Source: Rhodococcus oxybenzonivorans (GTDB lineage: Bacteria > Actinomycetota > Actinomycetes > Mycobacteriales > Mycobacteriaceae). From it: a stretch of 64,000 nucleotides of DNA. This document shows, in pieces, positions 44,845 through 59,317 of this stretch. Position 1 is the first letter of the stretch. Every line of letters begins with the position of its first letter. The notes under the pieces were generated by a model. It was not told where the DNA came from. It made no database searches and saw only the letters and a list, made by a program, of their open reading frames with translations. Both the position numbers and the translations under genes were made by a program. The DNA lies in the NCBI RefSeq assembly GCF_003130705.1, contig NZ_CP021354.1, positions 6,014,001 through 6,078,000 of the forward strand. Direction: 5' to 3'.

Positions 44845-45990
44845 TTACCGTTGACCCGTTATCGCGAGATAGCGGTAGATCGCCTCGGACCGGTTCATGG
44901 CACCCAGCTTGCGAAGTATCTTCTTGACGTGCGTCTTCACCGTGAAGATGCTGATGACCAGCTCGTTCGCTATCTCGGCGTTCGATGCGCCCCGGGCAAG
45001 AAACGCGAACACCTCGCGTTCACGCGTTGTCAGCGACTCCAGCGCAGCGGAATTCAGATCGTTGTGGGACGTACCGGGCAACGTCGAAGTCTGATCAGCC
45101 GAGGTTTCCTCGAGGAAACTGACATCAGCGTGTTCGAGAAGCTCAGCTTCGCGGGCTTCCTGTTGCAGGCGTTGGACAATCACATTCTTCTGTTCACCGA
45201 GGCGGTCGGCGAGCATCGCCCGTTCGAACAACGTTCCGAAACCGCGGGCATATGCCCCCAGCATGTCCCGGACCACAACGTTCACCGGATCCCCGGACGG
45301 TCGACTGCCGTGCACGAGCCCGATAACCCCGGTCGACACTGTGATCGGGGCAACCACATAGGACTCGGCAGCGAGCATCCGTACGACCTCGCCACTCGGC
45401 CGAACATCGCCATTCGGCCCGGCGAGTACCGCTGATCGGGTCTCGCACGCCCTGCTCTCGGCCGATTCGAAGCCGAGGGGCAACACCGAGGAACTCAGGA
45501 CCTCGTCCGACCTCATCGAGCTGTTGAGCTCGAGGGCCGTCCACGTACCGTTGTGTACCTCGGACAGGAGTATTCGGTCGAGTTGCGCTGCAGTCGCGGC
45601 CTCCGAGCAGATTCGCTTGCGAAGACCGGCGACGGACTCCGAGCACCGTAACCGCCGGATCGCGCTGGCAAACTCGGCGGGTTGCACGACGTGCCCCGGA
45701 CCTCCGCGCACCGTGCGAATCCGCATACGCGTCTTCTGCAGGTCGACGATGAGGCGACCGAGCGCTCGTTGCTGCTGGGAGCCTAGTTCGGGGAACTTCG
45801 CAAGTGCAGATTCTGTGGCCTCGTCGAGGAGCGCCATCTGGGTGCCGAGCGAGACAACACGAATTTCGTGGGATCCGGGACCAACGCCGTAGTCGTCGCG
45901 CAGCCGGTCGAGGAGAATGATGACTGCATGCGACAACTCACGGTCGGTCGTGGAACGCACGGCAGCTCGCTCCTGCGCCTTCCCTGTCAT
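44845..45990 (-). CDS. LuxR-family transcriptional regulator (second of a tandem pair)
   Basis: A 381-residue protein with a long N-terminal sensor region that includes a GAF-like segment (about residues 115-260). The C-terminal LuxR HTH is LTTREREVFAFLARGASNAEIANELVISIFTVKTHVKKILRKL. No receiver domain. The ATG overlaps the stop of the preceding luxR gene by 4 bp. The two proteins share architecture and C-terminal sequence and look like diverged duplicates. They likely control the neighbouring CoA or aromatic cluster. Confidence 0.87.
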   Translation of the reverse strand: MTGKAQERAAVRSTTDRELSHAVIILLDRLRDDYGVGPGSHEIRVVSLGTQMALLDEATESALAKFPELGSQQQRALGRLIVDLQKTRMRIRTVRGGPGHVVQPAEFASAIRRLRCSESVAGLRKRICSEAATAAQLDRILLSEVHNGTWTALELNSSMRSDEVLSSSVLPLGFESAESRACETRSAVLAGPNGDVRPSGEVVRMLAAESYVVAPITVSTGVIGLVHGSRPSGDPVNVVVRDMLGAYARGFGTLFERAMLADRLGEQKNVIVQRLQQEAREAELLEHADVSFLEETSADQTSTLPGTSHNDLNSAALESLTTREREVFAFLARGASNAEIANELVISIFTVKTHVKKILRKLGAMNRSEAIYRYLAITGQR

Positions 45991-47168
45991 CGCGCTCGTC
46001 GGGTTTGACTCGAGTAGAGGGCGGTCGCCGCGGCGCGCGTCGGTGCGTGCAGCTTCTTCAGCACGGTTTTCACATGCGATTTCACGGTGCCCTCGGAAAT
46101 GACCAGTGCCTGCGCGATCTGGTTGTTGGTGGCCCCGGTGGCGAGGTGGGACAGGACCTCACGCTCCCGGACAGTCAGCACGCTGTTGATTTCGAGTATC
46201 CGGTTCCCTCCCGGGTCGTCGGTGGAACTGTCGGCGGTTGCCGCGGCCTGGTGCGAGAGAATTGCATCCGCCTTCGAGATCCGGTCCAGCATCGTCTGGG
46301 TTGCGTCGAACGACTCTTCCACTCGGGCGCGCTGCAGTTGGATTCGGTGCTTCAGCACCGCTTGCTCGTACACGATGGCCAAAATGGTTGTGAAGGCGTC
46401 CAACCGATCTCGGTCGTCCGGATCGAGACCACCTTCCGATTCCGGCCGATCGGCATGGAGCAGTCCGATGACCTTCCCCGAGGACATGACGGGCGCCGCG
46501 ACGTACGCGGACGTCCGAGATCGGCTGATGATCTCTTTGTGCGTGCGGTCGTCGGCAGCCGGGGCGGCGACCAGCGCGGGAACTCGGCGTCGGACCAGCT
46601 CGGTTTCCAGAGGCGCATCAGCCAGGGACCACACTGAGGAGTCGACGTAGTCGGAGAAGTCGAGAGGTGATCCGTCGAGGTCGGGCTGCAGATAAAGACG
46701 GCGGGGCTGCCACAGAGAACCGGACACCGCTGAAATCAACGAGCGCGCGAAAGGTAGTTGTGTGCACACCACTTCCGGTGCCGCCTCGATGACCTGTTGC
46801 GGGGAGAGTCCCCGAAGCGTCACTGCAGCGTCGTGCACCTCACTCAGCTCCGCGATCCGGCGAATCTCTGTGGTCCTGGCGAGCTGCTCCTGAACACGTT
46901 CGATGTCGACGAGGACCCGGCATGCGTCTTCGATATCGGACTCGGCGAGCTGCCCCTCGGTGAGCGCTTCGGCAAGGCGACCTCGCGCCGCTGCAAGTGA
47001 CTCCGGGAGTGTGGGAGTGCCGAAGTCGGAGTGGCCGTCGTGGTCGACCAGCAGCGTGCCGACAATAGCAATGCAGTCGACCGCTTGCTGCACGAGATCC
47101 GCTTGATCGGGATCGATTGACGTCGTCGTCCAGCTCACCTTCCGATACACCTCCGGCCGTTTGTGCAC
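45987..47168 (-). CDS. LuxR-family transcriptional regulator with GAF-like sensor
   Basis: A 393-residue protein. The N-terminal part is helical with a SELSEVHDAAVTLRGLSPQQVI segment. A GAF-like domain lies around residues 130-270 (SAYVAAPVMSSGKVIGLLHADRP), and the LuxR HTH is at the C-terminus (LTVREREVLSHLATGATNNQIAQALVISEGTVKSHVKTVLKKL). GTG 47168 is used; GTG 47138, with GGAGG 12 nt upstream, is an alternative. First gene of the tandem luxR unit. Its promoter must lie in the 165-bp gap before the extradiol dioxygenase gene end. Confidence 0.87.
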   Translation of the reverse strand: MHKRPEVYRKVSWTTTSIDPDQADLVQQAVDCIAIVGTLLVDHDGHSDFGTPTLPESLAAARGRLAEALTEGQLAESDIEDACRVLVDIERVQEQLARTTEIRRIAELSEVHDAAVTLRGLSPQQVIEAAPEVVCTQLPFARSLISAVSGSLWQPRRLYLQPDLDGSPLDFSDYVDSSVWSLADAPLETELVRRRVPALVAAPAADDRTHKEIISRSRTSAYVAAPVMSSGKVIGLLHADRPESEGGLDPDDRDRLDAFTTILAIVYEQAVLKHRIQLQRARVEESFDATQTMLDRISKADAILSHQAAATADSSTDDPGGNRILEINSVLTVREREVLSHLATGATNNQIAQALVISEGTVKSHVKTVLKKLHAPTRAAATALYSSQTRRAR

Positions 47169-47334: not shown

Positions 47335-48396
47335 TTACGAGTACACGGCAAACGCCTTGTTAGAGTTGAACACATCGGTCACCACGAGGTCGGACCACTC
47401 CCGGCGCAAACCGAGCTCCTCGACCGCACCGAGCATGCAGAACCAGTTGAGGATCTCGTGCTGGCCGGCATCGACGACTTCTGCGCTGGTGTATCTGCGC
47501 ATCATTGCGTAATCGTTGTCGAGCAGCGCCTTGTAAATGCGCATGTCAGCTTCGGTATCGGGACGCATATGCCACAACTTGTCCGCCAAGAAGGCGTGGG
47601 ACCAGCTCGAGGAGGCGACGAATGCCACCTTGAGATCGCGGTCGCGGAAATGCTGCGCGACGGCTCGACCCACTTCGAAACAACGAGCAGGTGTGGGGCC
47701 CGAAGGATCAAGCTCCTCCGACTCGATGTCGGCGAATCTGGCCAATCCACCCTTACGCGCGATCGCGTGTTGGCCATAGCAATTGACGGTCATCGGAATG
47801 AAGGGGTATGACATCTCCGCGCCGGCGTTCTCGTAATCGAGGAACAATTGCGTGTTGAGGATCGCGTGTGGAAAGTGTGCACCGGCGCGCTTCTTGTACG
47901 AGTAGGCCATGTCGAAACCGCGCTCGATCAGGCCGCCGGTGAGTTGGCGGGCTGCCGATGCGTCACCACGCATGACTATCTCGAAATCGTCCGGTTTGCC
48001 CCAGAAGTTCGGGCTGCCTCTTTCGTTCATGACCTCGAACGCGGGCACCTCGAGGTCACCGTAGGCGAGCACACAGAAGGGTGGCACTACCTCCTCGCGG
48101 AAATTCTCGTATTGGTCGTCGCCCCACACCACGACGACATCGGGGGCGAACTCGTCGACCGCTTCACGCACCCGAGTCAGATTCGACACCAACTCCGCAC
48201 GATGTGCCGCCGCGGCTGCCGTTCCACCGTCGTCGGACCACTCGGAGCGCATCCGGTCCGGCCAATGGGCCGGGTCCTTCTCCTCGACCGGGATGTCCGG
48301 GTCGGTGAGGGTCCATCGCAACAGGCCTGCCATGTGCTCGTCGGTTCCCGCCAGCAGCGGGTAGTGGGTCATGCCGAGAGCGAGGAAGTCTCCCAT
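47335..48396 (-). CDS. LigB-type (class III) extradiol ring-cleavage dioxygenase
   Basis: A 353-residue protein of the LigB superfamily. The N-terminal LALGMTHYPLLAG carries the first iron-ligand-type His (His11). Other family blocks are VVVWGDDQYENFRE, PFIPMTVNCYGQHA, VAFVASSSWSHAFL and a C-terminal LNWFCMLGAVEELG. Enzymes of this type use Fe(II) to open catecholic rings beside a hydroxyl (meta cleavage). Given the Rieske dioxygenase and dehydrogenase downstream, it probably cleaves a 2,3-dihydroxy aromatic carboxylate. AAAGGA lies 8 nt before the ATG, and a GTTCC-N7-GGAAC palindrome lies 99 bp upstream of the start. Confidence 0.88.
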   Translation of the reverse strand: MGDFLALGMTHYPLLAGTDEHMAGLLRWTLTDPDIPVEEKDPAHWPDRMRSEWSDDGGTAAAAAHRAELVSNLTRVREAVDEFAPDVVVVWGDDQYENFREEVVPPFCVLAYGDLEVPAFEVMNERGSPNFWGKPDDFEIVMRGDASAARQLTGGLIERGFDMAYSYKKRAGAHFPHAILNTQLFLDYENAGAEMSYPFIPMTVNCYGQHAIARKGGLARFADIESEELDPSGPTPARCFEVGRAVAQHFRDRDLKVAFVASSSWSHAFLADKLWHMRPDTEADMRIYKALLDNDYAMMRRYTSAEVVDAGQHEILNWFCMLGAVEELGLRREWSDLVVTDVFNSNKAFAVYS

Positions 48397-48494
48397 TTGG
48401 CCGTCCTTTCTGGGGTGGCGCCTCGGGCGCCGTCACACGCGCCGGGCGGATCGCTCCCTCATCGTGTGACGTGCCGGTGACGCACGCACGGCAA

Positions 48495-48511
48495 GTTCCA
48501 GTGCCCGGAAC
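48495..48511. promoter_or_regulatory. IclR operator candidate A (upstream of extradiol dioxygenase)
   Basis: GTTCC-AGTGCCC-GGAAC. It lies in the gap between iclR (stop at 48518) and the extradiol dioxygenase start (48396), on the transcription side of the latter. Confidence 0.65.
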
Positions 48512-48517
48512 GCGGCG

Positions 48518-49333
48518 TCAGTCGTCGAACGGAAAGAGGTCTGCTCGGCCCTGGGAGAGCATCTGGGTGGTGTCGCGGCTGATGCGGTGGGCGGTCAGTT
48601 TGACCGCGTTGATCACCGACTCGGAGACCTGCTTCGACGAGTCGAACTGAACGGCGATCGCCCCCATCGGCCGGCCCTTGATCAGGACGGGCGCCGCAAT
48701 GTTGCCCAGGCCGAGAACCACACCATCCTTCTGGACAGCTGCTCCCGCCACCCGTATGCGCTTCAATTCGTCCTGAATCTGCATCGGATCCGTCACGGAC
48801 TTGGGCGTCAGACCGACGAGAGTGCCCGCAAGCAGTTCGGTGAGCTCGTCCTCGGGGATATAGGCCATCATTGCCCGACCCATCGCGGACAGGTGCGCGG
48901 GGATCCGCGTACCCACCTCACCTATTGGCCGGGCGTGATCCACGGCGAAGAGCGCCTGCAGCACGACGACCTCGTTGCCCCTGAGGACGCCGAAGTGCAC
49001 CGATTCCTTCGACCACGCCTGCAACTGGGCCAGGTGCGGCAACGCGACCTCGCGCATTCCGTCCACCGGCATGGACGAAACCAGCTGCAACAGACGGATA
49101 CCGAGTCGGTAACCCGCACCGTGTTCCTCGATCACATCCAGCTCGCCCAACCGCTGCAGCAACCTGTGTACCGTCGACTTGGGTAAGCCGGTCTTACGGC
49201 TGATCTGTGTCAGGGTCAGCACCCGATCTCGCTCGTTGAACGCCCCGATGACCAAGAACGCCTTCGCCAGAATGGAGGGAGGCGCACTCTGCGCGCCACC
49301 GACCTCGTTTTTGTCATCTGCCATGTGCATCAT
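48518..49333 (-). CDS. IclR-family regulator of the aromatic cluster
   Basis: A 271-residue protein. The winged HTH is LTLTQISRKTGLPKSTVHRLLQRLGELDVIEEHGAGYRLG. The effector domain contains LPHLAQLQAWSKESVHFGVL and RIPAHLSAMGRAMMAY, and the C-terminal region GLGNIAAPVLIKGRPMGAIAVQF. ATG 49333 has GGAGG 5 nt upstream; later in-frame ATGs at 49330 and 49324 are possible. Divergent from the amidohydrolase-hydrolase-MFS unit. Operators of one type flank it on both sides, so it is the best candidate to control the whole cluster. Confidence 0.88.
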   Translation of the reverse strand: MMHMADDKNEVGGAQSAPPSILAKAFLVIGAFNERDRVLTLTQISRKTGLPKSTVHRLLQRLGELDVIEEHGAGYRLGIRLLQLVSSMPVDGMREVALPHLAQLQAWSKESVHFGVLRGNEVVVLQALFAVDHARPIGEVGTRIPAHLSAMGRAMMAYIPEDELTELLAGTLVGLTPKSVTDPMQIQDELKRIRVAGAAVQKDGVVLGLGNIAAPVLIKGRPMGAIAVQFDSSKQVSESVINAVKLTAHRISRDTTQMLSQGRADLFPFDD

Positions 49334-49431
49334 CCGGGCCTCCGCACTCTCCGCTCCGCCGACCCAGCGGGAAACCAACTGTAACGGCGGTCACAACGCG
49401 CATGTATTCAGGGTACGGGTTTCACCTACCG

Positions 49432-49448
49432 GTTCCAGCCCCTGGAAC
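49432..49448. promoter_or_regulatory. IclR operator candidate B (between iclR and amidohydrolase)
   Basis: GTTCC-AGCCCCT-GGAAC, in the divergent gap, about 110 bp upstream of the amidohydrolase GTG and about 100 bp upstream of the iclR ATG. Suited to autoregulation and control of the catabolic unit. Confidence 0.65.
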
Positions 49449-49557
49449 AGCCGCGGCGGCCACCGTGCGAGGGCCCCTAACGTTTCGCAGAACCGGCTTA
49501 CCCACGACGTGGGCGTGCCGACGGAACTGAAACGGATGCGTGCGAAAGGAGAACCTC

Positions 49558-50622
49558 GTGGTTCCACCCGGCACCGTCGATGTGCATGCGCACTACTTCC
49601 CCCGTGACGCCCCTCCCGTCGAGGTCATCGCAGGTTTTCCGCGCGCACCTCGATTAGTGGTCGACTCTCCGACGGAGGGACGGTTGGTCCGCGGATCCGA
49701 AGACTTCCGCAGCGTCCGGCGCGCCCTCTGGGATGTGGAGGCGCGCCTGGCGGACATGGATCGCGCGGGCGTCGGGGTTCAGGCGATTTCTCCCGTGCCG
49801 GTCGCATTGGAATACGGTGCTCCGGTAGCACCGTTTGCCGCCTACTGCCGATGGATGAACGAGTCCATCGCCCGTGCGGTCGACCCTGCTGACGGCAGGC
49901 TCGTCGGTATCGGAACCGCCCCCGTTGCATCACCCCGTCACTGTCTGCCCGAACTACGTCATCTGTCCGAAGTTCTGGGGCTTCGCGGCGTCGAGATCGG
50001 CACGCGGATCAACGGAATGGAGTTGGACGACCCGGCGCTGGGGTATTTCTTCGACGCCGTCGACAGCCTCGGTCTCGCGGTACTTGTGCACCCGGTCGAC
50101 GGTGGTGGCGGCGCCGTGCGGCGCTCCGGGTTCACCTATGACTTCGGGCTCGGAATGCCCTCCGACACTGCGTTGGCGGCCACTGCCCTCGTCTTCGGCG
50201 GGGTTCTGGACAACCATCCAGGACTACGGGTGGCAACGGTTCACGGCTGCGGAACCTTCCCGTGGGCGTATCCAAGACTTCGCCTCGGAGCCCAGCTTGC
50301 CGCCACACACGACCCGGATGATCTGAATCGGACCGTATCGCGCCTCTACGCAGACACCCTCGTGTTCGATCCGGCGCACCTGCCGACTCTGGTACATCGC
50401 TTCGGTCCGAACAGGGTCCTTCTCGGCAGCGACCACCCGTTCATCCCGAACCAACCCGAAGAGGGAATTGCGGACTTGTCCTCTATGGCAGCATATTTAC
50501 CGCCCGGTACCGTGCCGCGAATCCTCCGTGACAATGCACTCGAATTCCTCGGACTGTCATCCGATGCGCTCGTCACCGCTCACTTCTCACCGACAAAGGA
50601 AGACCACCATGGCACTCACTGA
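49558..50622 (+). CDS. ACMSD-type amidohydrolase (probable ring-cleavage product decarboxylase)
   Basis: A 354-residue TIM-barrel amidohydrolase. Metal motif VDVHAH (His10, His12), LVHPVDGGGG, ATVHGCGTFPW and LLGSDHPF (late metal Asp). This is the subfamily of aminocarboxymuconate-semialdehyde decarboxylase and gamma-resorcylate decarboxylase, which includes metal-dependent nonoxidative decarboxylases and a few hydratases. In this context it would remove the ring carboxylate after meta cleavage. GTG 49558 has AAAGGAG 6 nt upstream. Its end overlaps the next gene by 14 bp. Confidence 0.83.
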   Translation: MVPPGTVDVHAHYFPRDAPPVEVIAGFPRAPRLVVDSPTEGRLVRGSEDFRSVRRALWDVEARLADMDRAGVGVQAISPVPVALEYGAPVAPFAAYCRWMNESIARAVDPADGRLVGIGTAPVASPRHCLPELRHLSEVLGLRGVEIGTRINGMELDDPALGYFFDAVDSLGLAVLVHPVDGGGGAVRRSGFTYDFGLGMPSDTALAATALVFGGVLDNHPGLRVATVHGCGTFPWAYPRLRLGAQLAATHDPDDLNRTVSRLYADTLVFDPAHLPTLVHRFGPNRVLLGSDHPFIPNQPEEGIADLSSMAAYLPPGTVPRILRDNALEFLGLSSDALVTAHFSPTKEDHHGTH

Positions 50623-51592
50623 TGAAAATCTCGTCGACGTTCCCGGAATGGCCAGCCGATGGGTACGCCTGGCGAACGGCGCCCGCGCGCATTACATGAC
50701 TGCCGGCACCTCCGGCCCCGCGGTGATCCTGCTCCACGGCGGTTTACCCGGCTCGTCAGGTCTCGCGGGGTGGCGCTTCATGGCCCCCTATCTCGGCGAC
50801 AACGGTTTTCGCGTCTACTGTCCCGACATGCCCGGCTTCGGACTGTCCGACACCCGGGAAGAATACTGGCCGGACGGCATGGAGTCGTTCGTCGACTTCA
50901 TCGACCAGTTCGCCACCGCACTGTGCCTCGACGAGTTCCACCTCGCAGGAAACTCCATGGGCTGCATGAACACGGTCAACTACACGGTTGCACACCCGGA
51001 CAAGGTCAAGAGCTTCATTCTGATCGCGGGAGATATCGGTGATGTGGTCCCGGAACACTTGACACCACCAGCGGGCGAATTCCGTCTCACGGCGTACGAC
51101 GGCACACGTGAGGGCATGCGCACCATGATGGAAGCGATCATCCACCGCGGCGAGGCCATCAGTGAAGACCTGATCGACATGCGTTACCTCTCCGCGAGGG
51201 ACCGGATGGATGCGCACGCGAAGTTCTGGCCCACGCTCCTGCAGTACCGTCGAATCACGGACTGGACGAACGAGAATCGCGCCGCCCGCCTCGTCACCAA
51301 GGGGCGCCTCGACCGGTTGAGCACGCCCGGGCTCTACCTCTACGGTCGTCAGGACATCCTCACACCGGTCGAGTGGGGGTACGTCCAGGAAGACTACTTG
51401 CCCAATGTCCAGTTCTTCTACCCCGACGAGTGTGGCCACCAGGGTCAGACCGACAGGCCCGACCTGTTCAACCCGGTCTTTCTGGAATTCTTCCGGGACG
51501 GTACGGTCTCCGGTGAGCTCGCCGACGCCGCTGGTGTCTCCGATCGCCGCCCCGAACTCCCACTGATCAACCGTTCCCTGGTTTCTGCCTGA
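50609..51592 (+). CDS. Alpha/beta hydrolase, meta-cleavage C-C hydrolase type
   Basis: A 327-residue alpha/beta hydrolase: ILLHGGLPGSSGLAGW oxyanion loop, nucleophile GNSMGC near 115, acid in LYGRQDILTP near 250, and His in DECGHQGQTDRPD near 280. The GNSMG elbow and the catalytic His followed by a short C-terminal helix match BphD/MhpC-type hydrolases, which split 2-hydroxy-6-oxo-dienoates into an acid and 2-hydroxypenta-2,4-dienoate. AAAGGAAG precedes ATG 50609. Co-transcribed with the amidohydrolase, it is the next step after decarboxylation. Confidence 0.87.
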   Translation: MALTDENLVDVPGMASRWVRLANGARAHYMTAGTSGPAVILLHGGLPGSSGLAGWRFMAPYLGDNGFRVYCPDMPGFGLSDTREEYWPDGMESFVDFIDQFATALCLDEFHLAGNSMGCMNTVNYTVAHPDKVKSFILIAGDIGDVVPEHLTPPAGEFRLTAYDGTREGMRTMMEAIIHRGEAISEDLIDMRYLSARDRMDAHAKFWPTLLQYRRITDWTNENRAARLVTKGRLDRLSTPGLYLYGRQDILTPVEWGYVQEDYLPNVQFFYPDECGHQGQTDRPDLFNPVFLEFFRDGTVSGELADAAGVSDRRPELPLINRSLVSA

Positions 51593-51602
51593 ATCTCCGG
51601 CG

Positions 51603-51654
51603 ACAACCGTTGGCCGACTCCGGGGTCCACGATCCGGCGTCGGCCAATGGTTGT
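51603..51654 (+). terminator. 16-bp hairpin with short T-run
   Basis: Bases 51603-51618 pair with 51639-51654 (15 of 16 positions), followed by TTTCGTC. The stem-loop lies in the 89-bp gap between hydrolase and MFS genes. It may act as an attenuator that lowers transporter expression. Confidence 0.6.
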
Positions 51655-51681
51655 TTCGTCCGTGAACCGAGGAAGTGTCCG

Positions 51682-52920
51682 ATGGCTCGACCGCAGACTG
51701 CGCCGACCGAAACATCACCCACTGTTCCGGCACTGTCGGTGCGAACCGGACGTCGTGCCCGGACCTGGTTCTCGATCTGCGCGGCAATGTTCGTGGTCGC
51801 CTGGGGTGGCAATCAATTCACTCCACTGCTGACCATGTACCGGACGCAACGCGGGTTCAGCGAACTCGCCGTGAACACACTGCTGTTCGCGTATGTCGTC
51901 GGCCTGATCCCCTCGCTCCTGCTCGCGCATCGGCTGGCGGCCCGCTGGGGCACCCGGAATCCTCTCGTTCTCGCCGTACCCCTCAGTGCACTGGGCTCTA
52001 TCCTGGTCGCGGCCGGGTCACACAACCCTGCGCTGATGTTCGCGGGGCGTATGTCGACCGGTGTGGCGCTGGGGATCGGGATGGTGGTCGGCGGGCTGGC
52101 GCTCGATTCGCTTTCGACCACATCTGGCCGCGCTCCACGCGCATCGGCAATGAGCCTGACCAGCGGATTCGCGGTGGGCGCGGGTGCTGCGGGCGCACTC
52201 GCCCAGTGGGCTCTTGCGCCGACCACCACGCCTTTCGTGCTTCACGGAGTGCTCTGCGCTGGTGGTGCCGTACTGATTGCGCGATCCACGACCGCTACTG
52301 CGCGCACACGGTCAGACCAATCGGAGCGAAACCGAACACCGCTTCCGAGAGCATTCCATCTCCTCGTGATACCCGCCGCACCGTGGATCTTCGGTGCCCT
52401 GGGCATCGCTTACGCGGTCCTCCCGCCCATCGTGGCGGCTGAGCTGGCCGGCTTCGATTCAGCATTCTCGGGAGTGCTGTGCCTGCTGAGTTTAGGACTA
52501 GGCTTCATCGCGCAACGTCTCGCCGGGCGCACACCGAAACGATCGGGCCCGACACGGGCGATCGGACTTACGCTGTTCGTGGTCGGCACGCTCGCCGCCG
52601 CCGTAGCTGCCGCAACCGCGTCGGTGTGGCTGGTCGTGGTCGCGGCATCCGTGCTGGGGATCGGATACGGATTGACGTTGGTCGGATGCTTGCGTGACTG
52701 CGAGCGATCAGCCCCGCCCGGCCGGCTCGGGACGATGACCGGCCGGGTCTACTGTCTGGGCTATCTCGGGTTCGGACTACCGACCGCGATCGCATGGCTG
52801 CACAGTTCATTTGCGATCGGCACGACGACATCATTGCTGTGGGTCGCCGGTGCGGCCGTCGCGACCAACATTGCAGGTGCTGTCCTTCTCGGCATCACAC
52901 GAAAAGAGCAGGCGGGTTAG
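51682..52920 (+). CDS. MFS transporter, probable aromatic acid uptake
   Basis: A 412-residue membrane protein with 12 predicted helices. It begins with a short polar tail, then MFVVAWGGNQFTPLLTMY, LLFAYVVGLIPSLLLAHRLAARWG and VLGIGYGLTLVGCLRDCE. It follows the hydrolase gene and ends near the remnant of a second transporter. GAGGAAG lies 6 nt before ATG 51682. Likely brings the aromatic substrate in, but direction of transport is inferred. Confidence 0.82.
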   Translation: MARPQTAPTETSPTVPALSVRTGRRARTWFSICAAMFVVAWGGNQFTPLLTMYRTQRGFSELAVNTLLFAYVVGLIPSLLLAHRLAARWGTRNPLVLAVPLSALGSILVAAGSHNPALMFAGRMSTGVALGIGMVVGGLALDSLSTTSGRAPRASAMSLTSGFAVGAGAAGALAQWALAPTTTPFVLHGVLCAGGAVLIARSTTATARTRSDQSERNRTPLPRAFHLLVIPAAPWIFGALGIAYAVLPPIVAAELAGFDSAFSGVLCLLSLGLGFIAQRLAGRTPKRSGPTRAIGLTLFVVGTLAAAVAAATASVWLVVVAASVLGIGYGLTLVGCLRDCERSAPPGRLGTMTGRVYCLGYLGFGLPTAIAWLHSSFAIGTTTSLLWVAGAAVATNIAGAVLLGITRKEQAG

Positions 52921-52947
52921 GGCATCTCGCCAAATCACGGATCGTGC

Positions 52948-53607
52948 CTAGCCGACATCCTCGTGTGCTCGCACCGTAACGGGCTCAGTTTCACTCTCTT
53001 GCAGAGAAATTCCCTTGGTCTCGGCCAGAAAGGCGACGCAGAGCGCGCTGGCTCCAGCGAGGACGGCCATCATGACTGCAAGTCCGAGACTGCCGAAGGC
53101 GGCGACCAACGGCGCGGCGACAATCGGGGGGATGGCCCCGCCCACCACACTGCCCATGTTGAACGCCACACCGGCGCCGGTGGAACGGTAGCGGGTGTGA
53201 AAGGTCTCGGGAATGATCGCCGTGGTGGTGCCGCTCGCGACTCCTACCAGCAGGAGCGTGCCTGCCACTGCAACGGCCATCAGAGCGATATTGCCGGAGT
53301 TCGCCAGGGGAAACAGTGCGAACGCCCATCCGACGGCCAGAGCGTTGGCTCCTCCGATGGTGATCTTGCGCCCTCGTCGATCTGCCAGGAGGGCTCCCGC
53401 GACGGAGCCGATGACGTTGAACCCGACGCCGATGAGGTTCACGGTCAGCATCTCGGAGCGACTGAAGTTCAGAACGGTGGTGCCGTAGTTGGTGATGTAT
53501 ACCGCGCCGATGTAGAAGAATGACAGCCACATGACTACCGCGCCGGATGCCAACAGCACTTCTTTGCTCTGGTGATGGAGGAGTTGGACGAGCGGCGTCT
53601 TGGTCTC
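52948..53607 (-). pseudogene. C-terminal half of an MHS-type MFS transporter (truncated)
   Basis: Only 219 codons of coding-quality sequence remain, beginning ETKTPLVQLLHHQSKEVLL. This is the central cytoplasmic loop and helices 7-12 of a metabolite:H+ symporter-type carrier. The N-terminal half, normally about 210 residues, is absent. Upstream of 53607 the frame stays open but has no membrane or coding pattern. There is no good start codon with a ribosome binding site at the break. Stop TAG at 52948-52950 and the SLQESE tail are intact. Most likely a deletion during rearrangement of the cluster, which left the transporter role to the 51682 gene. Confidence 0.8.
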
Positions 53608-53646
53608 GTTTAACCTAGGTGAGATACAGGTCACTGCCGGTGGGAT

Positions 53647-53663
53647 GTTCCAGTGAACGGAAC
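53647..53663. promoter_or_regulatory. IclR operator candidate C
   Basis: GTTCC-AGTGAAC-GGAAC, 95 bp upstream of the ferredoxin reductase start, in front of the Rieske dioxygenase operon. Confidence 0.65.
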
Positions 53664-53700
53664 TCCGGCCGGACACTGAGCGACTTGCGAGGTGTGTGCA

Positions 53701-53717
53701 GTTCCAGCGGTCGGAAC
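53701..53717. promoter_or_regulatory. IclR operator candidate D
   Basis: GTTCC-AGCGGTC-GGAAC, 54 bp from site C (start to start) and 41 bp upstream of the reductase ATG. A candidate -10 TACGTT (53746-53751) lies just downstream and would give a leaderless message at 53758, with this site overlapping the -35 side. Confidence 0.65.
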
Positions 53718-53757
53718 TACGCACCACCCGGCCGTGCGACGTCGCTACGTTTCGACT

Positions 53758-54951
53758 ATGTCCTTCCTGATCGTCGGCGCCTCGGTTGCAGGCACTCGAA
53801 CAGCAATCGCCCTGCGGCAGCGCGGTTTCTCCGGGCACATAGTGCTCCTCGAGAGCGAAGAGCACTGGCCGTACGACAAGCCCCCTCTGTCCAAGGACCT
53901 CCTGGCCGAGGGGCACGTCCCGGATGTTCCGCGCCTTCTCACACCGGAGCTCGCAGCGGAGTTCGCCCTCGACGTCCGGTTGGGTATGCGCGCGACCGGT
54001 CTGGACCCGGCGCGGCGGGTGGTGTTCACCCACACCGGCGACGAGTTCTCGTACGAACGGTTGGTGATCGCTACCGGCGCTCATGCGCGGTCCCTCCCCA
54101 TACCTGCCGTACCGGGGGTTCACACGCTGCGAACGCTCGACGACGCGACGGCTCTGCGAGAAGCTCTCGCCGGCAGGCCGCGGGTGGCCGTGGTGGGCGC
54201 CGGATTCATCGGCGCCGAATTCGCCTCCGCGGCACGAGGGCGCGGCCTCGACGTCACTCTGATCGAGGCACTCGAGATCCCGATGAGTCACGTTTTCGGC
54301 GACGAGGTCGGGCGTGAGATCTCCTCGATCCACACACTTCACGGCGCCGGGCTCGTCACCGGAGCACGCGTCGAGCGGTTCCTCGGCAGCGAGCAGGTCG
54401 AGGGGGTCGCCCTCGCCGGCGGAACCGAGGTACCTGCCGACCTCGTCGTCGTCGGCGTGGGTGCGGTACCGAACACGCACTGGCTCGCGGACAGCGGGCT
54501 TCCCATCGACGGCGGGGTGCACTGCAGCGACCGCTTCGAGGTCGAAGGCTTCCCCTCCATCTTCGCGATCGGTGACCTCGCCCTGCGCCGACACCCACTG
54601 CTCGGGGTCAGCGCGCGGATCGAGCACTGGACCAGCGCCGGTGAACAAGCCGATGCTGTCGCCGCATTCGTTACCGGCGCGGAACCCCTTGCGGCCCAAC
54701 TTCCGTACGTGTGGTCGGACCAGTACGGCGCCCGGATCCAGATGGTTGGAATGCCCTCGCTCGGCGAACTCGCCCATCGCGAGGGGTCGATCGCGGAGGG
54801 CCGATTCCGCGCCGTCTACACCGACACCGACCACAACCCGATCGCCCAGGTCAGCGTCAACGACCCCAGAGCAGTAGCCGCGTTCCGCAAGAACCATCGT
54901 CGCGGCGGGAGTCTCGCGGACCTCGTCGGCCAGCAGACATCCGCCCGATAA
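53758..54951 (+). CDS. Ferredoxin reductase of the ring-hydroxylating dioxygenase
   Basis: A 397-residue FAD/NAD(P) oxidoreductase of the BphA4/CmtAa group: LIVGASVAGTRTAIALRQRG, DKPPLSKDLL, YERLVIATGAHAR, VAVVGAGFIGAEFA and FAIGDLALR, then a C-terminal reductase domain. It passes electrons from NADH to the Rieske ferredoxin (57225). No Shine-Dalgarno is visible; leaderless start is likely. First gene of the dioxygenase operon, behind two palindromes. Confidence 0.9.
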   Translation: MSFLIVGASVAGTRTAIALRQRGFSGHIVLLESEEHWPYDKPPLSKDLLAEGHVPDVPRLLTPELAAEFALDVRLGMRATGLDPARRVVFTHTGDEFSYERLVIATGAHARSLPIPAVPGVHTLRTLDDATALREALAGRPRVAVVGAGFIGAEFASAARGRGLDVTLIEALEIPMSHVFGDEVGREISSIHTLHGAGLVTGARVERFLGSEQVEGVALAGGTEVPADLVVVGVGAVPNTHWLADSGLPIDGGVHCSDRFEVEGFPSIFAIGDLALRRHPLLGVSARIEHWTSAGEQADAVAAFVTGAEPLAAQLPYVWSDQYGARIQMVGMPSLGELAHREGSIAEGRFRAVYTDTDHNPIAQVSVNDPRAVAAFRKNHRRGGSLADLVGQQTSAR

Positions 54952-54963
54952 AGGAAGGCACTC

Positions 54964-55245
54964 ATGCGTCATATTCAGCATTTCAAGGACGGTCCGGACA
55001 AGATCCTTCATATCGAGACCGAGGGCTGCAAGGTCAACGTGATCATCGGGACCCACGACCTGAGCAACGAGGTCTTCACGACCGTCGAGATTCTGCCCGC
55101 CGAACCGGACGACGACGGACGGAACTGGATGGCAATCGGTCCCACGGCTGTGCTGGTCGTTCCGGCTACCGGCTCCGATCCCGACAGTTGGTTCTTCCGG
55201 GACCTCGCAATGACCGATCCCAGCGTCGCCGACCACCACCACTAA
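54964..55245 (+). CDS. Unknown 93-residue protein in the dioxygenase operon
   Basis: A small acidic protein with a Shine-Dalgarno AAAGGAAGG just before ATG 54964, between the reductase and the alpha subunit. It contains KVNVIIGTHDLSNEVFTTVEILPAEPDDDG and AVLVVPATGSDPDSWFFRDLAM and ends in HHH. I do not recognise it. Its fixed place inside the operon and its size suggest an accessory or assembly factor, but there is no direct evidence of function. Confidence 0.75.
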   Translation: MRHIQHFKDGPDKILHIETEGCKVNVIIGTHDLSNEVFTTVEILPAEPDDDGRNWMAIGPTAVLVVPATGSDPDSWFFRDLAMTDPSVADHHH

Positions 55246-55291: not shown

Positions 55292-56605
55292 ATGACCGCA
55301 GAGCAATTCATCATCGACGACCGTGAGAACAACCTTTTCCGGGTCAACCGTGAAGCCTTCACTTCCGAGGAGGTGCTGCAGCGCGAGCGAAAAGAGATCT
55401 TCGACAAGACGTGGCTGTACGTCGGACACGAGTCCGAAATTCCCGGCAAGAACGACTTCCAGACCCGGGACGTCGGCGGCCGGCCGGTGATCTTCAACCG
55501 CGACCGCCATGGTGATGTTCGGGTGCTGCTCAACACCTGCCTGCACAGGGGATCGTCCGTCTGCCGGCACAGTTCGGGTAACGCCAAAATTTTCACCTGC
55601 TTCTACCACGGCTGGGCGTACCGAAACTCGGGCGAGTTGGTCAACGTGCCCGGTAACGAGGATTACAAGAGCGAGCCGGCAGCGGTGTACAAGGGTCTAC
55701 AGTCCCCGGCACAGGTGGACAGCTACCGCGGGCTCTACTTCGTGAACTTCGATCCCGACGCGCCTGATCTGCTGACGTTCCTCGGCGAAGCGCGCTACTT
55801 CATCGATCTGGCAGCCGATCAGTCCCCCGAAGGCGTCGCAATCCTGGAGGGAACCCACAAGTACTCGCTGAAGGCCAACTGGAAGCTCCTCGTCGAGAAC
55901 AGCATCGACGGATATCACGCCAAATCCGTCCACCACACCTACTTCGAAATGATGATGGAACTGGGTGCCACACCCCCGATGCTGGGTAAGGAAACCGTCA
56001 ACGGTGTGGCGCCGGCCGGCATGGGCACCGAATTCCCGAACGGGCATGCCACATTGATGTACCCGGCCAACGGACTCCCTCTGGCGACCGACAGTGTCAA
56101 GCAGACCCTCGCCAACCTTCGAGCACAGGCCGAGCAGACCTTCGGTGAGAACTACGCCACCGCGATGTTCGGCCTGGCACGAAACTCGGTGTTCTTCCCC
56201 AGCCTCATCCTGATCGATCTCAGCTTCGGATTGACGCTGCGCACGTTCTACCCGGTGAGCCCATCGGAAACCCTTGTGACCGGCTGGCAGATCATCCCCA
56301 AGGGTGTCGACGAGGAGTTCGTCAAATACCGCATCAACAATGCACTCACCTTCTGGGGACCGGCGGGGCTCGCGACCCCAGACGATGTCGAGGCTCTCGA
56401 ACAGGCCCAGAAGGGGTTCGGTGCACGCGGCGAAGTCGGCTGGTCCGACGTGTCGAAAGGTATGGGCAAGCCCGTCCCAGCGGCAAACGACGAGCTGCAG
56501 ATGCGTTCGTGGTGGCGAGAATGGAACAGGCGAATCACCGGACAGCAACTCCCCACCGAGGGCACGTCGTTCGTTCCCTTCGACAAGCAGGACGTCGATG
56601 CCTGA
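55292..56605 (+). CDS. Rieske aromatic-ring-hydroxylating dioxygenase, alpha subunit
   Basis: A 437-residue catalytic subunit. The Rieske cluster is C83-L-H85 and C103-F-Y-H106. The mononuclear iron site has Asp206, His209 and His214 in the ENSIDGYHAKSVHH segment. Length and motifs fit a 2,3-dioxygenase acting on an aromatic acid. It acts with the beta subunit (56655), ferredoxin (57225) and reductase (53758) as a three-component system. Exact substrate unknown; the downstream pathway favours an alkyl-substituted benzoate such as p-cumate. Confidence 0.92.
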   Translation: MTAEQFIIDDRENNLFRVNREAFTSEEVLQRERKEIFDKTWLYVGHESEIPGKNDFQTRDVGGRPVIFNRDRHGDVRVLLNTCLHRGSSVCRHSSGNAKIFTCFYHGWAYRNSGELVNVPGNEDYKSEPAAVYKGLQSPAQVDSYRGLYFVNFDPDAPDLLTFLGEARYFIDLAADQSPEGVAILEGTHKYSLKANWKLLVENSIDGYHAKSVHHTYFEMMMELGATPPMLGKETVNGVAPAGMGTEFPNGHATLMYPANGLPLATDSVKQTLANLRAQAEQTFGENYATAMFGLARNSVFFPSLILIDLSFGLTLRTFYPVSPSETLVTGWQIIPKGVDEEFVKYRINNALTFWGPAGLATPDDVEALEQAQKGFGARGEVGWSDVSKGMGKPVPAANDELQMRSWWREWNRRITGQQLPTEGTSFVPFDKQDVDA

Positions 56606-56654: not shown

Positions 56655-57158
56655 ATGACTTCCGTGTCAGAGACACCAACCATCACGACGCGTAACGCCG
56701 TCGAGGAATTCCTGTTCCACGAAGCCGGCCTGATCGACGAATGGCGACTCGAGGAGTGGCTCGACCTGTTCACCCTCGACTGCACGTACGAGGTTCCGGC
56801 CACGGACCGGCCGCACGCGGACCCCGGTCTCACGTGGTCGCTCATCCACGATGGTCGCACCATGCTCGAGCAGAGGGTGATTCGGCTCAAGAAGCCGGAG
56901 GCGCACGCCGAGTTTCCCCATTCGCAGACCAGTCGAATCGTCGGCAACGTGCGGATCCTTGCAGAGACGGACGAAATGATCGCCGTCACTGCTAATTTCA
57001 TCATCAACCGCGCAAAATCGGGCAAGTTCGACACCTACGTCGGCCGGTACGACTACGAACTCATACCCGGGAACTCGTCGTTCCTGATCCGTCGAAAACG
57101 AGCCGTCCTGGCTCACGACATGCTCGACCCCCAGGGCAAAATCAGCTTCATCATCTGA
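56655..57158 (+). CDS. Ring-hydroxylating dioxygenase, beta subunit
   Basis: A 167-residue SnoaL-like beta subunit: VEEFLFHEAGLIDEWRLEEWLDLFTLDCTYEVPATD, SRIVGNVRILAET, and the final FLIRRKRAVLAHD. It has no cofactors and shapes the alpha3beta3 hexamer. It is 49 bp after the alpha subunit gene, in the same operon. Confidence 0.92.
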   Translation: MTSVSETPTITTRNAVEEFLFHEAGLIDEWRLEEWLDLFTLDCTYEVPATDRPHADPGLTWSLIHDGRTMLEQRVIRLKKPEAHAEFPHSQTSRIVGNVRILAETDEMIAVTANFIINRAKSGKFDTYVGRYDYELIPGNSSFLIRRKRAVLAHDMLDPQGKISFII

Positions 57159-57602: not shown

Positions 57603-58382
57603 ATGAACAGGTTCAAAAGCCGGACCGCGGTTGTCACCGGTGCAGGCAGCGGCATCGGTCGCGCCATCGCCGTGCGATTGGCGGATGAGGGTGCCGATCT
57701 CGTCCTCGGAGACCTCAGTGCGGACGCAATAGAGGCGGTGGCCGAACACCTTCGGCCGGGCGCGGCGTCGGTGACCACCGTGGTCGGAGACCTCTCCCAG
57801 CGAGAGGATGCCGCCGACCTCATCCGGCGGACAGTCACCGAACGTGGCGCGATAGACGTGCTGGTGAACTGCGCGGGCGGCGGCGTCATCCTTCCCACGT
57901 TCGACCACACCGAGGAAACCTTACGGGCCACCATCGACCGCAACCTCTGGACGACCCTGTACACCACGCTCGAGGCACTACCCCACATGGTGGACGCCGG
58001 TTACGGCCGAATCGTGCACATAGGAGCCGAATCCGTACGCAACGGTCTGTACCGGCACGCAATTTACAACGCCGCGAAGGGTGGAGTTCATGCATTCGGA
58101 ACCGGACTCGCGCGTGAGTTCGCGGATTACGGAATCACCGTCAACACGGTCGCTCCGGCGTGGATCGAGACGCCGGAGGCCGCCGCCAAGTTGGCCTCCG
58201 CACCGGCCGAGGTGAAAGACGACATGGCGATATTCGGTGCCCAGATGCGCAACCTCATCCCGATGGATCGTCCAGGAACGGTCGAAGAAGTAGCGGCCAC
58301 AGTCGCCTTCGTCGCGTCCGAAGAAGCGTCCTACGTGACGGGTCAGGTGATCAGCGTGAACGGTGGCAGTTCCATGCTGTGA
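57603..58382 (+). CDS. SDR, probable cis-dihydrodiol dehydrogenase
   Basis: A 259-residue classical SDR: VTGAGSGIGRAIAVRLADEG, NCAGGG, and the Y-N-A-A-K catalytic pair near 158 (YNAAKGG). It follows the ferredoxin by 42 bp. By position it rearomatises the cis-dihydrodiol formed by the dioxygenase to the catechol-type acid that the LigB enzyme then opens. Intact in contrast to the tyrosine-less SDR at 42067. Confidence 0.88.
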   Translation: MNRFKSRTAVVTGAGSGIGRAIAVRLADEGADLVLGDLSADAIEAVAEHLRPGAASVTTVVGDLSQREDAADLIRRTVTERGAIDVLVNCAGGGVILPTFDHTEETLRATIDRNLWTTLYTTLEALPHMVDAGYGRIVHIGAESVRNGLYRHAIYNAAKGGVHAFGTGLAREFADYGITVNTVAPAWIETPEAAAKLASAPAEVKDDMAIFGAQMRNLIPMDRPGTVEEVAATVAFVASEEASYVTGQVISVNGGSSML

Positions 58383-58442: not shown

Positions 58443-59228
58443 CTATTCTCGATCCCTGGCGTCGGTGAGCGCACGGGTAATGCTCAGGGCGGTGGTATGG
58501 ACGGCGGGACCTACACGCCGGATATCGACCTTGCCGATCCATCCGGACGCGGAGACGGCGGCCACCGGTGGACCGTCGTCAATGCGGATGACGCTCGCCA
58601 CGCAGGCCACGCCCGGTGCGGATTCCTCGTGCTCGTAGGCGATGCCGCTCGAGGCTATGCGGCGCAGCTGCCGCACCAGGGGTCCGGGCGTGGTGATGGT
58701 GCGTGGACCCACCTGGACCAGGCCGGCCGCGAGCACCTCGGCGATCATCTGCGGCGGCGATCCGGCGAGCAGGGCTTTGCCCACCCCCGTGGCGTGCGCG
58801 GGTAAACGGCTACCCACGCCGGACGGCAGCCACGGTGCGTCCCGTCCCGGCAGGATCTCGACGTAGACCACCTCGGTGCCGTCGAGGATGGCCAGATGCA
58901 CGGTCTGCCGCGTCGCCTCCCGCAGATCGGCGAGGAACGGCAGCGCCACCTCGCGTACCGACCGGCGCCGTGAGGCCCGTTCGCCGAGTTCGAACAGCCG
59001 CAGACCGAGCACCACCTTGACACCCCGACGTTCGAGAAACCCGACGCCTTCCATCTCCTTCACCAACCGCGACACCGTCGCCTTCGGTATCCCGGTCCGC
59101 CGGGTCAGTTCGTTCACACCCAGCGCGGTGTCGGTGGGCCCGAATGCGGCGAACAGATCCGACATCCGCCGGACCACCGACGTCGGCTCGCCACCGGGCG
59201 GCGAAGTGTTCCGTTCTACGGGACTCAT
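58443..59228 (-). CDS. Second IclR-family regulator
   Basis: A 261-residue protein. Winged HTH VNELTRRTGIPKATVSRLVKEMEGVGFLERRGVKVVLGLRL, then the effector domain with LPFLADLREATRQTVHLAIL and RLPAHATGVGKALLAG. It is less than 35% alike by eye to the IclR at 48518 outside the HTH. Divergent from the hydratase-aldolase genes, so it probably controls that lower-pathway unit. ATG 59228 is chosen because the earlier in-frame start adds a non-conserved leader. A partial GTTCC-N7-GGGAC lies over its start region. Confidence 0.85.
   Translation of the reverse strand: MSPVERNTSPPGGEPTSVVRRMSDLFAAFGPTDTALGVNELTRRTGIPKATVSRLVKEMEGVGFLERRGVKVVLGLRLFELGERASRRRSVREVALPFLADLREATRQTVHLAILDGTEVVYVEILPGRDAPWLPSGVGSRLPAHATGVGKALLAGSPPQMIAEVLAAGLVQVGPRTITTPGPLVRQLRRIASSGIAYEHEESAPGVACVASVIRIDDGPPVAAVSASGWIGKVDIRRVGPAVHTTALSITRALTDARDRE
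59208..59224. promoter_or_regulatory. Weak IclR-type palindrome over the second iclR start
   Basis: GTTCC-GTTCTAC-GGGAC: one mismatch from the GTTCC-N7-GGAAC pattern and lacking the AG at the start of the spacer. It lies just inside the coding start of the second iclR gene, so it may be chance. Confidence 0.3.
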
Positions 59229-59317
59229 TCGTTGAGTATCACCACCCGGCCCGGCACAGTACAAGCCACACGCGCCGTCCGCATCCCCCACGAGCGAAAA
59301 GCAATCGGAGGACATTG

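Follow-up and report, generated by a model that had tools for sequence, protein, structure and literature searches.

Four conserved palindromes as predicted operators of an IclR-type regulator in a putative p-cumate gene cluster of Rhodococcus oxybenzonivorans

Suvorova and Gelfand (2021) described a GTT-11-AAC subgroup of IclR binding sites with the consensus GTTYCRYW3RYGRAAC; Actinobacteria make up 30% of the taxa in the table for this subgroup, in which many clusters of orthologous groups (COGs) of aromatic metabolism are underrepresented (PMC8222616). GenR of Corynebacterium glutamicum, which both activates and represses, has the site ATTCC-N7(5)-GGAAT (PMC8222616). The p-cumate operons of Rhodococcus sp. 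T104 (Bae et al. 2007) are flanked by three iclR-type genes, and in Pseudomonas putida F1 and Burkholderia xenovorans the TetR-type protein CymR binds upstream of cmtAa at the site ACAAACAGAC-N6-GTCTGTTTGT (PMC5224996). Here we analysed 64,000 nucleotides of Rhodococcus oxybenzonivorans (contig NZ_CP021354.1, positions 6,014,001 to 6,078,000; the whole stretch is called the window, and positions are given in its own numbering), which contain four palindromes of the form GTTCC-N7-GGAAC near genes for an extradiol ring-cleavage dioxygenase (ligB), an amidohydrolase and a Rieske dioxygenase. We consider it highly probable that the four palindromes are operators of IclR1, the IclR-type regulator encoded between two of them, and likely that this protein would act as an activator of the ring-cleavage genes.

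An exact scan of the window found GTTCC-N7-GGAAC four times, at 48495, 49432, 53647 and 53701, just as a preliminary description of this DNA had listed them; on the plus strand GTTCC is followed by AG in all four. One hundred dinucleotide shuffles of the window gave a mean of 0.08 matches and a maximum of 1, and among 60 Markov-resampled windows dyads with the GTTCC half-site numbered 0 in 57 and 1 in three. Perfect 5-N7-5 dyads number 113 in the window, and CG-rich half-sites also reach 4-5 copies; what is unusual is the GTTCC half-site and its placement, not the perfect dyad as such. All four sites have a purine (R) after GTTCC and a pyrimidine (Y) before GGAAC, which gives the refined motif GTTCCR-N5-YGGAAC (the R...Y form). 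With up to one mismatch GTTCC-N7-GGAAC matches ten times in the window, six of these matches being inexact. The neighbouring coenzyme A (CoA) cluster had been described as free of such sites, and indeed none lies at 40-48.4 kb, even with up to one mismatch.

An iclR1 ortholog is present in seven of 28 genomes of the genus, the source genome included (87-100% identity). All seven genomes carry sites before the same genes, and so does Citricoccus zhacaiensis, whose IclR protein is 62% identical. The conserved loci are thus eight: the window, six further Rhodococcus loci (L023-L026, L028 and L029) and the Citricoccus locus (L027). Together they hold 28 perfect GTTCC-N7-GGAAC sites, with GTT and AAC inverted and 11 bases apart in 28/28, and in all eight iclR1 sits between two of the sites. 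Alignments of the three intergenic regions, inspected visually, show no block shared with Citricoccus that is better conserved than the palindrome. The preliminary description had named a lack of conservation in orthologous clusters as grounds for abandoning the proposal; the sites are conserved in seven clusters besides the window. A class-wide search at E 1e-62 matched one of 394 genomes, the source genome itself, and gained no further cluster.

The same description had asked for a scan of the whole genome and would have taken frequent random matches as a refutation. The pattern is not frequent: the 8.01 Mb genome holds 22 exact matches, where the reversed control gives 5. Eighteen of these fall outside the cluster, 15 inside GC3-called open reading frames (ORFs) and three between genes, and the three intergenic ones (L012, L013, L033) lack the R...Y form. 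GTTCCR-N5-YGGAAC itself occurs seven times in 8.0 Mb, at the four window sites and at three positions inside ORFs. Across the genus, the 21 genomes without an iclR1 match have 0-8 R...Y matches each (80 in all), and the seven with one have 6-9 each, or 2-6 once the three or four cluster sites are subtracted. With a background of about four per genome, the case is carried by placement and conservation and not by rarity alone. A chance origin of the four palindromes, for which the genome-wide count alone would be insufficient, was rejected on the shuffles, the placement and the conservation taken together.

IclR1 belongs to the IclR family, with HTH_IclR (PF09339) at 55.3 bits (cut-off 22) and IclR_C (PF01614) at 93.8 bits (cut-off 24); it falls outside the PcaR/PcaU/PobR subfamily (TIGR02431, 122 bits, below the cut-off of 284.75). 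Its true start is probably the ATG near 49333. A search of the PDB returned IclR-family matches for IclR1 and, at E 0.001, no match for LigB. The link between sites and regulator was examined in 23 other loci with a LigB relative, where an R...Y site with up to one mismatch, at most 250 bp upstream of a cluster gene, was counted. Such a site is present in all 12 loci with an iclR1-type regulator and in 3 of the 11 without one (L049, L053, L054); the five loci with GntR/FCD regulators, as annotated, have none. The one-sided Fisher p is near 0.0003, calculated by hand and uncorrected for relatedness, seven of the 12 loci being close relatives of the window or of Citricoccus; L058 was counted as having the regulator on the strength of a gene on the same plasmid, at a distance of 20 kb (in L076). 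All eight aligned iclR1-type proteins share the recognition stretch PKSTVHRL. On two plasmids with IclR proteins 35-40% identical to IclR1, every site with at most one mismatch, whether or not of the R...Y form, falls outside listed genes (12/12 on Rhodococcus erythropolis pRhX5 and 7/7 on a Pseudonocardia plasmid), though the gene tables of both are incomplete and some sites may fall in unlisted genes. In L075, 45 kb of pRhX5, the 12 sites are distributed among CoA, oxidoreductase and extradiol genes, which is possibly a larger regulon of an IclR protein of about 40% identity.

A second regularity concerns promoters. The -10-like boxes assigned to ligB, the amidohydrolase operon, the dioxygenase operon and a divergent remnant of a major facilitator superfamily (MFS) transporter gene all lie 28 or 29 nt beyond their operators (Table 1; +28 denotes 28 nt beyond the palindrome). 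In Citricoccus, TAGCGT, TAGCTT and TATGTT stand at +28 or +29 and ligB has CAGCAT; the Rhodococcus loci retain CACGAT for ligB, one base farther away in L024. Site 9963 of L046 stands between two divergent units and has a box toward each, TAGCCT at +28 and TAACGT at +29. A first set of 39 tracts contains 21 TANNNT boxes within 60 nt, of which 20 fall at +28 to +30. If the box is the -10 element, the centre of the operator falls near -49 and its end just short of the -35 region, the position of an activator, and the fixed spacing would likewise suggest activation. The gap between operator and reductase (fdR) ATG is 40 nt in the seven Rhodococcus loci and 41 in Citricoccus; we infer a leaderless transcript of the dioxygenase operon, starting at the ATG at 53758, which would explain the invariant gap. 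One further palindrome, the one-mismatch R...Y site GTTCCGTTCTACGGGAC at 59208-59224, stands at the boundary of the iclR2 and hydratase genes, close to the likely start of iclR2 and within the ORF listed for it; TANNNT was not found at +28 to +30 from it (48 bases shown), and it may be a weak fifth operator or a chance match.

Site conservation and co-occurrence with iclR1-type regulators thus support the local IclR regulon put forward in the preliminary description. As we picture it, an IclR1 dimer, with a pathway compound such as p-cumate or its dihydroxy derivative as its presumed ligand, would bind each operator about 49 bp upstream of the transcription start and assist RNA polymerase at a promoter whose -10-like box lies 28-29 nt past the palindrome. 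In this way it would activate ligB, the amidohydrolase-hydrolase operon and the reductase-Rieske dioxygenase-ferredoxin-short-chain dehydrogenase/reductase (SDR) operon. The fourth operator would once have served the divergent MFS gene, probably for uptake, whose 5' half is lost in the window. The operator shared with iclR1 may also give autoregulation: taking TACCCT as the iclR1 -10 box places the operator over the iclR1 -35, which suggests autorepression.

It is unlikely, in our estimate, that IclR1 binds the same sites as a repressor, with induction by release from the operator. The IclR family does include repressors, activators and dual regulators (PMC8222616), and the iclR1 -35 may lie under the operator that iclR1 shares with the amidohydrolase gene. 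On the enzyme side, however, 28-29 nt separate the end of the palindrome from the -10-like box, which puts the operator upstream of the -35 position, and the distance is alike at different promoters; a blocking repressor needs no fixed upstream phase.

We give still less weight to binding by another regulator, such as the product of the second IclR gene of the window (iclR2, at 58443) or an unlinked protein. The iclR2 gene adjoins the dioxygenase operon, many IclR proteins bind this class of site (PMC8222616), and three LigB loci have sites with no iclR1-type gene nearby. It is iclR1, however, that keeps its place between two sites throughout the conserved loci, and no iclR2 match was found at E 1e-15 in the fetched stretches of the seven others, which cover the iclR2 position beyond the SDR gene in L024, L025, L026, L028 and L029, and stop short of it in L023 and L027. 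IclR2 also has a different recognition stretch, PKATVSRL, and on both grounds it was disfavoured as the regulator. It is hardly credible that the palindromes have no protein partner and arose as chance repeats or act as RNA hairpins of a terminator or attenuator, common as perfect dyads of other half-sites are in this GC-rich window: the sequence itself, and not just its pairing, is conserved across genera and before different genes, no T-run follows the four window sites, and these lie upstream of -10-like boxes, outside the predicted transcripts.

The spacing was examined further in 38 tracts drawn from ten of 24 loci of our choice, near-identical Rhodococcus loci and L047 being left out. 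In this second set 15 tracts have TANNNT at +28 to +30 and 23 lack it; where the locus has the regulator and the tract leads to a gene that is not iclR1, the count is 14 of 25. The 15 exceed what mononucleotide shuffles of the set gave, a mean of 0.66 with 4 as the maximum, or 6 for the best three-offset window at any position. Several observations weigh against activation by IclR1 through phased operators. The shuffle figures overstate the significance because the tracts were chosen and are partly related, and the test was set post hoc, after the window promoters had been seen. In L050, sites 3986 and 17064 are in the second set, and sites 6803, 13006 and 13057, in the first set only, are without a box; the box is likewise missing or weak in L058 and at most sites of L059. 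The ligB box, CACGAT, departs from TANNNT, and a second iclR1 -10 candidate further downstream rivals the promoter on which autorepression depends. As to the regulator, L049, L053 and L054 have sites with no iclR1-type gene in the fetched stretch, and no close iclR1 relative was found in genomes G396, G206 (57% complete) and G286, the nearest being a 34% match in G286 (E 1e-30); other IclR proteins therefore probably use similar sites. Four other aligned IclR proteins (from L049, L050b, L052 and L053) differ from PKSTVHRL by one to three residues. Finally, R...Y matches with up to one mismatch number 110 in the source genome against 79 for the reversed control, and whole-genome counts are not discriminating, genomes without iclR1 holding about as many off-cluster R...Y matches.

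An unlinked iclR1-type gene, which had been predicted for the genomes of L049 and L054, did not turn up in the genome search, G206 being 57% complete. Upstream of ligB, SDR or Rieske genes these two loci (G396 and G206) have palindromes in pairs spaced 38-39 bp apart, most of them imperfect.

The preliminary description had placed two sites before the dioxygenase operon and tied three transcription units to one regulator. Both positions are correct and the linkage is supported, but site 53647 faces the divergent truncated MFS gene and most likely belonged to it, so that four promoters are concerned. A second dioxygenase operator was rejected as the principal reading of 53647: toward fdR there is no -10-like box at +28 to +30, and one faces the MFS remnant. 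This remnant is a 215-codon piece that aligns to the C-terminal half of transporter profiles only. The same kind of site and box precedes a long MFS frame in Citricoccus (485 codons) and in L050 (477 codons, the site having one mismatch). L024 (R. jostii NBRC 16295) and L023 retain the second site and only a short 3' MFS stretch; in L025, L026, L028 and L029 short-word blastn at E 1e-3 found no MFS piece, and there is a single site only. The tandem sites are most readily understood as belonging to two promoters placed back to back, and one of these promoters is losing its gene. In L029, the mfs1 gene of genome G009 matches as two overlapping pieces and is probably broken there.

The cluster (Table 1) comprises the plus-strand units amidohydrolase-hydrolase-MFS and reductase-Rieske dioxygenase-ferredoxin-SDR, with hydratase-like, acetaldehyde dehydrogenase and aldolase genes downstream. 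By annotation, LigB is 73% identical to a Streptomyces albus protein named 2,3-dihydroxy-p-cumate dioxygenase, and the Rieske alpha subunit 99% identical to a protein of Rhodococcus sp. WS4 named p-cumate dioxygenase. The p-cumate (cmt) pathway calls for a Rieske dioxygenase with reductase and ferredoxin, a diol dehydrogenase, an extradiol enzyme, a decarboxylase, a hydrolase, a hydratase, an aldolase and an aldehyde dehydrogenase. Domains or named homologs point to a candidate gene for every step, the decarboxylase candidate being of a different family from CmtD, and the substrate is probably an aromatic acid, likely p-cumate. The Amidohydro_2 protein is probably the decarboxylase of the ring-cleavage product. 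CmtD is of the class II aldolase type, and in the more distant clusters L060 and L061 a class II aldolase gene adjoins ligB, which would fit the amidohydrolase as the local decarboxylase. A gene for a 93-aa protein stands between the reductase and Rieske alpha genes; a relative of it adjoins ligB in L046. Two adjacent LuxR-type regulator genes at 44845-47168 have counterparts 46-56% identical in four Rhodococcus relatives and 86-88% in R. koreensis, which suggests a replacement.

Table 1 Predicted operators, promoter elements and genes of the cluster, in window coordinates (., no strand assigned).
Feature	Position	Strand	Remark
LigB-type extradiol ring-cleavage dioxygenase	47335..48396	-	PF02900
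ligB -10-like box CACGAT	48461..48466	-	28 nt beyond operator
ligB operator GTTCC-N7-GGAAC	48495..48511	-	98 nt upstream of ligB start; kept in 7 other loci
iclR1, proposed regulator	48518..49378	-	PF09339 and PF01614 above cut-off
iclR1 candidate -10 box TACCCT	49410..49415	-	16 nt beyond operator; low confidence
Operator between divergent iclR1 and amidohydrolase genes	49432..49448	.	exact scan, conservation
Amidohydrolase operon -10-like box TAACGT	49478..49483	+	29 nt beyond operator
Amidohydro_2 protein	49540..50622	+	PF04909
Alpha/beta hydrolase, probable meta-cleavage product hydrolase	50609..51592	+	domain match
MFS transporter	51682..52920	+	domain match
Divergent MFS transporter remnant, C-terminal half	52948..53595	-	second half of PF00083/PF07690
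MFS remnant -10-like box TAGGTT	53612..53617	-	29 nt beyond operator
MFS remnant operator	53647..53663	-	intact MFS gene behind same site in Citricoccus
Dioxygenase operon operator	53701..53717	+	40 nt upstream of reductase ATG
Dioxygenase operon -10-like box TACGTT	53746..53751	+	+28 from operator
Ferredoxin-NAD reductase-like subunit (fdR)	53758..54951	+	domain match
93-aa protein, no Pfam match	54964..55245	+	conserved with operon
Rieske dioxygenase alpha subunit, p-cumate dioxygenase type	55292..56605	+	domain match
Rieske dioxygenase beta subunit	56655..57158	+	domain match
Rieske-type ferredoxin, 111 aa	57225..57560	+	PF00355, 53.3 bits, cut-off 20.3
SDR dehydrogenase, probable cis-diol dehydrogenase	57603..58382	+	domain/profile match
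iclR2, second IclR gene, not proposed regulator of the sites	58443..59315	-	IclR domains; PKATVSRL
Weak candidate fifth site GTTCCGTTCTACGGGAC	59208..59224	.	one mismatch, precedes hydratase operon

The proposed promoter phasing rule, a -10-like box 28-30 nt past the palindrome, is new here, and it would offer a way to separate likely targets of this IclR clade from chance palindromes. A wider proposition, on which our own opinion is evenly balanced, is that in Actinomycetota p-cumate-type pathways are under the control of a clade of IclR activators, which act through a rigid module of GTTCCR-N5-YGGAAC, 28-29 nt and a -10 box. This module would work in either orientation, one operator being able to drive two divergent promoters at equal distance, as at site 9963 of L046; it would replace the GntR or TetR control of similar enzymes elsewhere, and orphan operators would point to transporter genes in the course of deletion. 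CymR serves in cumate-inducible expression systems, for which an activator-type sensor from Rhodococcus could also be useful. A search of the open-access literature found no report of an IclR operator for p-cumate genes.

Among described sites, those of the GTT-11-AAC class share with the window sites the inverted GTT and AAC 11 bases apart, the adjoining Y-C-R and the R...Y symmetry (PMC8222616). The full consensus of that class is not matched: the outer six positions on each side fit, while position 7 is G in the window where the consensus has Y, and the centre is mostly G/C where the consensus has A/T, with R at position 11 (PMC8222616). The fixed distance from operator to -10 box is proposed here, and the survey's passages on this subgroup give none (PMC8222616). 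The GenR site resembles ours in being a near-identical inverted repeat with a 7-base gap, bound by an IclR-type regulator of aromatic-acid genes; its outer bases are A/T and not G/C, and its targets are 3-hydroxybenzoate/gentisate genes and not an extradiol pathway (PMC8222616). Rhodococcus sp. T104 likewise has a p-cumate-type pathway with iclR-type flanks, the clusters being compared by description only, and the account of it names three IclR genes and no operator (PMC5224996). CymR regulates p-cumate genes, as is proposed for IclR1, and both protein and operator are unrelated (PMC5224996). Our analysis assigns a predicted operator, regulator and promoter rule to an actinobacterial aromatic-acid pathway whose counterpart in Pseudomonas and Burkholderia is regulated by this unrelated TetR protein.

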